From assembly GCA_902612235.1 (NCBI GenBank), contig CACMCJ010000008.1, positions 1 through 44,684 of the forward strand: a stretch of DNA of 44,684 nt, in the 5' to 3' direction. Positions within the stretch are counted from its first letter, which is position 1, and each line of letters opens with the position of its first letter. The notes below the pieces were generated by a model. That model made no database searches, was not told where the DNA came from, and saw only the letters and a program-made list of their open reading frames with translations. Made by a program: the position numbers and the translations under genes. Shown here piece after piece: positions 25,706 to 27,421 of the stretch. This DNA is from an uncultured Pelagibacteraceae bacterium. Lineage in GTDB: Bacteria; Pseudomonadota; Alphaproteobacteria; Pelagibacterales; Pelagibacteraceae.

Positions 25706-26773
25706 TTATTTTCCTGTGATGAACTTTTGTCTAAGGTTATCAATTAATACAGAAGATCCATTAAGTTTATAATGCCAATAAGTCCAACCATTGTAACTTT
25801 CAGTACCCATTATTTTTGCTGCAATTTTGTGAATTGATCCTTCGGATTCTTTATATTTTATACTTCCATCAGCCATTATTTTTGCATTAATTTTTTTCTT
25901 CGGGTCAAATAATGATGTTCCTGGTTTTATAATTCCTAATTCAACAAGTGAACCAAAAGGTATTCTTAGTTTAGACTTATTATTTTCAATTGTATCTAAG
26001 TATTCATCCTCAATTTTATTAGTTACGCTAATTCTTGCTTTTGCTGCCGTAAAATATTTTCTGTCTTTTTCAATTCCACAATAAATTCTACCTAATTTTT
26101 TAGACACTACTGCAGTGGTCCCAGTGCCCAAAAAAGGGTCCAAAATTGTGTCACCTTTATTTGTAGTTGCTAATATAATTCGATGTAGCAACGCTTCTGG
26201 TTTTTGAGTAGAATGAATTTTTTTTCCATTTTTCTTTAATCTTTCTTTTCCATTACAAATTGGAAAGTTCCAGTCAGATCTCATTTGTAAATCATCGTTT
26301 AAACATTTTAGAGATTGATAATTAAAAGTATACTTTGATTTCTTATTTTTTGATGCCCAAATTAAAGTCTCATGGGCATTAGTGAATCTTGTGCCCCTAA
26401 AATTAGGCATTGGATTATTTTTTCTCCAAATCACGTCATTAAGTAACCAGTAACCCAAATTTTGTAAGTGATAACCTAATCTAAAAATATTATGATAAGA
26501 GCCTATCACCCATATACTCCCATTATCTTTTAAAATTCTTTTGCATTCGGTTAACCAAGCTTTACAAAAAATATCATAATGATTAAAACTATTAAATTGG
26601 TCCCATTTGTCATTAACTCCATTAACTTTACTTGAGTCTGGGCGAGTTAATTTTTCGCCGAGTTGCATATTGTAAGGTGGATCGGCAAAAACTAAATCAA
26701 AAGTTTTGTCAGGAATTTTTTTTAATTCCTTTAAACAATCACCGTTATAAATTTTGTTAGAAAATTTTGACAT
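25706..26773 (-). CDS. ccrM: Cell-cycle DNA adenine methyltransferase CcrM (GANTC)
   Basis: A 355-aa beta-class N6-adenine methyltransferase. Catalytic DPPY is at 31-34 and precedes the SAM-binding motif DPFLGTGTT (about 215), the order of the beta class. The alphaproteobacterial CcrM stretch with KLTRPD, VNDKWDQF and NPMPNFRGTRFTNAHETLIWA is present, and the last 80 residues form the C-terminal DNA-recognition domain of CcrM enzymes (GIIKPGTSLFD, YNGWTYWHY). It is predicted to methylate GANTC once per cell cycle. The rnhB gene lies upstream, as in other alphaproteobacteria. The leader between them holds four GANTC sites and an inverted repeat. Confidence 0.95.
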   Translation of the reverse strand: MSKFSNKIYNGDCLKELKKIPDKTFDLVFADPPYNMQLGEKLTRPDSSKVNGVNDKWDQFNSFNHYDIFCKAWLTECKRILKDNGSIWVIGSYHNIFRLGYHLQNLGYWLLNDVIWRKNNPMPNFRGTRFTNAHETLIWASKNKKSKYTFNYQSLKCLNDDLQMRSDWNFPICNGKERLKKNGKKIHSTQKPEALLHRIILATTNKGDTILDPFLGTGTTAVVSKKLGRIYCGIEKDRKYFTAAKARISVTNKIEDEYLDTIENNKSKLRIPFGSLVELGIIKPGTSLFDPKKKINAKIMADGSIKYKESEGSIHKIAAKIMGTESYNGWTYWHYKLNGSSVLIDNLRQKFITGK

Positions 26774-26776
26774 TTT

Positions 26777-26803
26777 CTAGATTCAACCCGAAATTGAATC
26801 TAG
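26777..26803 (-). promoter_or_regulatory. Perfect 10-bp inverted repeat with GANTC in each arm, ccrM leader
   Basis: CTAGATTCAA (26777-26786) and its exact complement TTGAATCTAG (26794-26803) flank a 7-base spacer. Each arm contains a GANTC site (26780-26784 and 26796-26800). In the ccrM mRNA it would fold into a 10-bp stem that ends three bases before the AUG and covers the normal ribosome-binding region. No U-run follows on the minus strand, so it is not an ordinary terminator. Confidence 0.7.
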
Positions 26804-26851
26804 GGTCAAACTAATTTATTTAAAAAATGAATCCTCTTGTGTTAAAGATTC
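26780..26851. promoter_or_regulatory. Cluster of four GANTC (CcrM target) sites upstream of ccrM
   Basis: GATTC 26780-26784, GAATC 26796-26800, GAATC 26829-26833 and GATTC 26847-26851 all lie in the 78-bp rnhB-ccrM gap. With base frequencies near 0.35 A/T and 0.15 G/C roughly 0.2 sites would be expected. Methylation-sensitive sites in the ccrM leader/promoter are established in Caulobacter; the same autoregulation is inferred here. Confidence 0.7.
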
Positions 26852-27421
26852 TTACTTCGACAATATCTTGTGTACAGGTTTAAATCCTTTTCTGTGATGA
26901 GCCGTTACGCCAAACTTTTTTAAACCTTCCAAATGAGCTTTGGTACCGTATCCAAAATTCCTTTCCCAAGCGTAATTAGAAAATCTTTCTGATAATTTAA
27001 TCATAAATTTATCTCTATAAACTTTTGCTACTATAGATGCAGCACTAATGACTTTAATTTTTTCATCTCCATTAATTATTGTTTTGTAATTTTTTAACCC
27101 TTTAGGTGCAAAATTTCCATCTATTAAAGTCAAACCTGGTTTTACAGTTAATTTTTTAATCGCTCTTTTCATAGAAAGTAAAGAGGCTTGTAAAATATTT
27201 AGATTTAAGATTTCTTCTACAGATGCAATACCAATTGAAAAATAAGAGTTATTTTTGATATGTTCTGAAATTTCTTCTCTTTTATCAAATCTAATTTTCT
27301 TAGAGTCTTTTAAAAAATTTAAATTAATACCTTTTTTTAGTACCACAGCTGCTGAAACAACTGGACCTGCTAAACATCCCCTGCCAACTTCATCAACTCC
27401 AGCAACGATTAATTCTCTCAT
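26852..27421 (-). CDS. rnhB: Ribonuclease HII
   Basis: A 189-aa RNase HII that removes ribonucleotides from DNA:RNA hybrids. Catalytic D10-E11 in GVDEVGRGCLAGPV, the third acid in LIDGNFAPKG, and the later KVISAASIVAKVYRD with its conserved Asp are present, with the C-terminal NFGYGTKAHLEGLKKFGVTAHHRKGF. It directly abuts the uracil-DNA glycosylase gene upstream (0 bp) and shares its strand with ccrM. Confidence 0.96.
   Translation of the reverse strand: MRELIVAGVDEVGRGCLAGPVVSAAVVLKKGINLNFLKDSKKIRFDKREEISEHIKNNSYFSIGIASVEEILNLNILQASLLSMKRAIKKLTVKPGLTLIDGNFAPKGLKNYKTIINGDEKIKVISAASIVAKVYRDKFMIKLSERFSNYAWERNFGYGTKAHLEGLKKFGVTAHHRKGFKPVHKILSK

Follow-up and report, generated by a model that had tools for sequence, protein, structure and literature searches.

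A predicted methylation-sensing ccrM promoter in Pelagibacterales and a class-wide promoter architecture to which it is related

The short gap between rnhB and ccrM in this Pelagibacterales (SAR11) genome reads as a sigma70 promoter for ccrM that carries target sites of CcrM itself, would give rise to a leaderless mRNA and would have its methylation state sensed, with the inverted repeat in the gap acting as a DNA element and not as a hairpin. We assign this reading, which rests on comparative sequence analysis, a probability of about 0.68. In general terms, CcrM probably controls its own gene via marks on the DNA rather than via a folded mRNA. The window (the whole stretch of 44,684 nucleotides that was analyzed) is best described as holding a derived variant of a predicted class-wide ccrM promoter, TTGAC-GANTC-GANTC-AnnnT, in which the second site has come to lie on the −10 element and is fused to the dyad ATTCAA-N7-TTGAAT. 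The class-wide conservation is the more interesting part of the finding.

The rnhB-ccrM gap and its GANTC sites

The source genome (965 kb) has uncultured Pelagibacteraceae as its closest relatives, and both genes flanking the 78-bp gap at 26774-26851 lie on the minus strand. We assign the downstream protein as CcrM from its agreement with a family model (NCBIfam NF050803, E 5.3e-170, with 565 bits falling below the 830-bit equivalog cut-off) and from its match to a solved structure, that of Caulobacter CcrM (PDB 6pbd, E 2e-135); the gene is present in a single copy within its own genome. Regulators of the Trans_reg_C type are present, CtrA and other members not being told apart. The features of the locus are as follows, with GANTC positions counted from the first T of TTGAC and conservation given for 81 leaders of the window's genus (80 loci from a collection with one genome per species, plus the window), where counts refer to species and not to independent events.

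25706..26773 (minus strand): ccrM, GANTC adenine methyltransferase, 355 aa (NCBIfam, PDB match)
26773..26774 (minus strand): predicted start of a leaderless transcript, at the ATG or 1 nt ahead of it, placed by the distance from the −10 to the start codon
26780..26784 (no strand): GANTC overlapping the −10, at +25; 74/81 leaders, with counterparts at +20 in the genus g3 and +19 in the sister family
26781..26786 (minus strand): probable −10 element TTGAAT, weak, without the −11 A, doubling as the right arm of the dyad; invariant in 81/81
26781..26799 (minus strand): dyad ATTCAA-N7-TTGAAT; invariant in 81/81
26796..26800 (no strand): GANTC in the promoter spacer, 3 bp past the −35, at +9; 75/81
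26804..26809 (minus strand): −35 element TTGACC; invariant in 81/81
26829..26833 (no strand): upstream GANTC, −24 from TTGACC; 48/81, and at the same place in 24/37 leaders of g3
26847..26851 (no strand): upstream GANTC adjoining the rnhB stop codon, −42 from TTGACC; 55/81
26852..27421 (minus strand): rnhB (RNase HII), the gene upstream of ccrM (NCBIfam RNase HII, E 1.5e-65)

A preliminary description of this DNA had pointed to four GANTC sites in the gap and to a perfect 10-bp inverted repeat. Both are indeed there: the sites lie at the four places listed above, and the arms CTAGATTCAA (26777-26786) and TTGAATCTAG (26794-26803) enclose a 7-nt spacer, the repeat stopping 3 nt short of the ccrM ATG. 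It is clear that neither the four sites nor the repeat is expected by chance. The cluster stands out because the window as a whole is depleted in GANTC (67 sites seen vs. 117 expected in shuffles); at the window's own rate only 0.12 sites would be expected in 78 bp and the probability of at least four is ~7e-6, and composition shuffles of the gap itself give 1.5e-5. An inverted repeat of at least 10 bp with a short loop arises in 168 of 100,000 shuffles (0.17%).

Conservation of the sites in the rnhB-ccrM gaps of relatives, a check suggested along with the preliminary description, was found to hold, with GANTC recurring at fixed places. Across the 74 of 81 genus leaders in which the rnhB stop could be located, GANTC occurs at 41 per kb compared to 1.6 per kb in the flanking DNA, a 25-fold enrichment. 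The two core sites, in the spacer and on the −10, are both kept in 69/81 leaders, and in one leader (L047) neither is kept. Several sites have been lost in the genus, L047 included, which means that the leader can do without methylation at these places. In L047 each core site has exchanged its outer bases (A-T in place of G-C), and the dyad core is perfect. We also observe that the upstream motif ACACAA-N3-GANTC, about 24 bp before TTGACC (26829-26842 in the window), is common to the window's genus and g3.

The predicted promoter and its class-wide counterparts

The core that is invariant in all 81 genus leaders, TTGACC-N3-(G)ATTCAATTT-NNN-GTTGAAT(C), ends 6–7 nt before the start codon. TTGACC and TTGAAT are separated by exactly 17 bp in every leader, and TTGAAT is followed by the start codon after 6 nt in 31 leaders and after 7 nt in 50. 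This conserved core reads as a sigma70 promoter, with a transcript predicted to begin at the ATG or beside it. What weakens this assignment is the −10 element, as TTGAAT has no A at the usual −11 position; a consensus promoter scan of the leader, with a scanner that needs an A at the second position of the −10, accordingly did not call TTGAAT and found nothing. Once the promoter assignment is presupposed, GANTC is present between the −35 and −10 elements, with the site at 26796 in the spacer and that at 26780 on the −10 itself.

All other SAR11 leaders that were read have TTGAC together with a −10-like hexamer at 17 bp. The genus g3, which is large and Pelagibacter-like, carries GANTC at +8/+9 in 37/37 leaders, at +20 in 36/37 and at −24 in 24/37, and the sister family carries it at +8 in 9/14, at +19 in 14/14 and at −14/−15 in 14/14. 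A related dyad, ATTC(A/T)A-N7-TTGA, overlies the −35 in g3 (31/37) and in part of the sister-family leaders; in genera g5 and g2 it is found downstream of the −10. Since the dyad takes other registers elsewhere in SAR11, it and the GANTC pair are distinct elements that fall together in the window's genus.

In other alphaproteobacterial families, the arrangement TTGAC-N2-6-GANTC-N3-9-GANTC is found in 32 of 77 ccrM leaders, as compared with a mean of 0.005 and a maximum of 1 in 200 dinucleotide shuffles. The two gaps sum to nine in 28 of these 32 (3+6, 5+4, 4+5, 2+7), which means that the second GANTC is locked to the −35 and the first slides. In those 28 leaders, without exception, A-NNN-T comes directly after the second GANTC, with the −11 A and the −7 T invariant, so that the predicted −10 reads CAnnnT and takes its first C from the GANTC site. 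To describe the arrangement in a non-circular manner, promoters were also located by TTGAC-N19-A-N3-T alone, with no use of GANTC. This pattern is present in 55/77 class leaders and in none on the opposite strand. GANTC falls at exactly +19 in 36 of the 55 promoters so located, the next commonest position being +8 (17), and 41 sites fall at +6 to +10 over the same 55 leaders.

The doublet pattern occurs 0–4 times per genome in 20 genomes and is nearly specific to ccrM. It is absent in two of the 20, the window's own genome, where the sites have shifted, and a genome of the SAR11 genus g2, where they have been lost. The shorter TTGAC-GANTC signature is not enriched genome-wide in SAR11 over a reversed control, and only the doublet is specific. 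One TTGAC-GANTC-GANTC occurrence outside ccrM was noted in a Pelagibacter-like genome (G003:C1:940421-940443, L303), with no frame of at least 55 codons starting within 400 bases behind it. Many class ccrM leaders have a third site upstream of the −35 (~−14 to −21 from TTGAC), often GATTCAAA followed by A/T-rich DNA. Separately, about half of the scanned genomes from outside SAR11 carry, immediately ahead of a septum gene resembling ftsB/divIC, an element of the form TTGAC-N4-6-GANTC-N6/7-GATTC that closes with GTGATTC. This element (close to position 2000 in each of L294-L297 and L299-L302, which come from other Alphaproteobacteria) has the look of a further promoter built around methylation sites.

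Weighing a hairpin, an operator and a methylation-sensing promoter

The preliminary description had envisaged a dual device, in which methylation is read on the DNA and an mRNA hairpin masks the ribosome site. The first part is plausible, since GANTC recurs at constant positions ahead of ccrM, while the second part does not hold up as a main explanation. A hairpin that represses translation would fit with a stem that stops 3 nt ahead of the ATG and with a leader RNA that folds better than its shuffles (z −3.4). However, the strict −35/−10 pair and the 6–7 nt from it to the start codon predict a transcript that starts past the repeat and does not contain it, and few relatives retain all 10 bp of the repeat. 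The compensatory changes that had been suggested as a check were not convincing either: the six inner pairs never vary, and such invariant pairs say nothing in favor of a hairpin. In a set of 63 unique leaders, the pair just outside these six does vary and forms no more often than in shuffles; for the three outermost pairs the counts are 27, 44 and 37 leaders, compared to 27.0, 37.1 and 34.2 in shuffles, the middle one reaching p 0.013 before any correction. The related dyads of other SAR11 genera take other places relative to the promoter, over the −35 in g3 and past the −10 in g5 and g2, which also speaks against a hairpin. An Rfam search of the leader gave no family above threshold, with one match, far below threshold, off the repeat, and no intrinsic terminator was found in the leader. 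We therefore reject the hairpin as the main explanation, given the lack of covariation and a predicted start past the repeat, and consider it quite improbable in that role. Read-through RNA from rnhB would contain the repeat, so a minor role for a hairpin there is possible.

A more serious competitor, although still an unlikely one, is that the dyad serves as the operator of a dedicated transcription factor, for instance a repressor covering the promoter, with GANTC being secondary and tuning its binding. The dyad core is invariant in 81/81 leaders, as compared with 75/81 and 74/81 for the G and C that complete the GANTC sites at its ends, and this difference means that something other than methylation also constrains it. 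The recurrence of ATTC(A/T)A-N7-TTGA near ccrM in g3, g5 and g2, at differing places, has a shuffle frequency of <0.5% in each, albeit for a motif that was chosen post hoc. There is also a loose resemblance to the NtrX motif CAA-N2-5-TTG, although the N7 spacing is outside the published range, and in Sinorhizobium ntrX mutants show raised ccrM (PMC9223101). On the other hand, part of the conservation is explained simply by the right arm of the dyad doubling as a −35 or −10 element. A SAR11 regulon built on the dyad was considered and rejected: the perfect dyad is found once per genome in each listed genome of the genus where it was found, the GANTC-ended form has one perfect copy in the window's own genome, and the recurrent near-copies checked are either intragenic or fall on the start codon of a gene that neighbors one resembling acetyl-CoA synthetase. 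Finally, GANTC could mark the region for a purpose other than transcription, such as protection or chromosome structure, with no effect on ccrM expression. Other promoters, and not that of ccrM, are named as unmethylated in a Pelagibacter methylome survey (PMC9516812), which can be taken in favor of this explanation. We regard it as the least probable of all, as the positions of GANTC are locked to the −35 and −10 to the base pair class-wide in a pattern nearly specific to ccrM.

In the methylation-sensing promoter that we favor, a sigma70 promoter (TTGACC, 17 bp, and a weak TTGAAT) would bear CcrM targets in its spacer and −10, the ccrM mRNA would start on or directly beside the ATG, and the state of the sites (unmethylated, hemimethylated or fully methylated) would be sensed at initiation. 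Such sensing would couple ccrM expression to replication and, in an autogenous manner, to the activity of CcrM. The dyad would be either a DNA operator or an element fitted to the promoter. In keeping with this reading, the methylome survey describes Pelagibacter GANTC sites as methylated both in culture and in the sea, with a replication-linked gradient (PMC9516812).

One candidate reader is GcrA, which could help RNA polymerase to open methylated promoters as it does in Caulobacter, where it brings the polymerase to m6A promoters and speeds their opening (PMC3667746, PMC7403470). GcrA is found in 128 of 147 Pelagibacterales genomes, including the window's own, in which the copy is intact (PF07750, E 2.4e-40; L115, ORF 1501-1995). 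A GcrA match is present in 24 of 32 genomes with the class architecture and in 38 of 45 without it, a comparison that could overlook divergent GcrA. Presence of the protein and presence of the architecture thus do not go together, and this counts against GcrA as the only reader. The other candidate is a direct effect of m6A within the −10. In the window's genus the −10 itself would hold the methylated base, which might then act on melting directly.

Comparison with known systems

We tentatively suggest, with somewhat less than even confidence, that the class-wide architecture is an ancient sensor, with two GANTC sites placed to the base pair between the −35 and −10, of which the second shares its C with the −10, that would give CcrM direct feedback on its own transcription at each replication and was rebuilt in this SAR11 genus, part of a lineage reported to lack CtrA, within a −10 and an operator dyad. 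The papers that were searched hold no description of the TTGAC-GANTC-GANTC-AnnnT architecture of ccrM. The finding bears on the question of how DNA methylation is timed, in the absence of CtrA, in the most abundant bacteria of the sea, and it offers a concrete circuit in which CcrM would switch its own gene on or off through its own sites, with GcrA as a possible reader. It also provides a short signature for seeking deeply conserved methylation-controlled promoters, and ftsB-like genes appear to bear a similar one.

The ccrM gene of Caulobacter is activated by CtrA. GANTC sites lie ahead of ccrM there as well, and Stephens, Zweiger and Shapiro (1995) reportedly thought that they contribute to shut-off; the difference from the present case is the activation by CtrA, as Brilli et al. 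2010 (PMC2877005) report no ctrA ortholog for Pelagibacter. That study likewise deals with GANTC upstream of cell-cycle genes, but in the text consulted it counts sites in 500-bp windows rather than placing them relative to the −35 and −10, and its authors concluded that methylation control could not be derived. The dyad is similar to NtrX sites in being a CAA/TTG dyad near a cell-cycle gene, but the published sites are CAA-N2-5-TTG (PMC9223101) and here the spacer is 7 with a single perfect site per genome, and NtrX is at most a putative binder.

The closest parallel is with the GcrA/CcrM-dependent promoters of Caulobacter (ftsZ, mipZ, ctrA P1, podJ), which are of the sigma70 type and have GANTC close to the −35 and −10 elements or between them, and both CcrM and GcrA are encoded in this organism too. 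Caulobacter ftsZ is activated through a GANTC between the −35 and −10 and responds to CcrM (PMC3708114), and cell-cycle-regulated start sites of Caulobacter with GANTC in this position form a separate timing class (PMC4287350). The promoter proposed here differs in that the regulated gene would be ccrM itself, with two fixed sites and a putative dependence on GcrA, and in that the second site, in the window's genus, lies on the predicted −10 and within the dyad.
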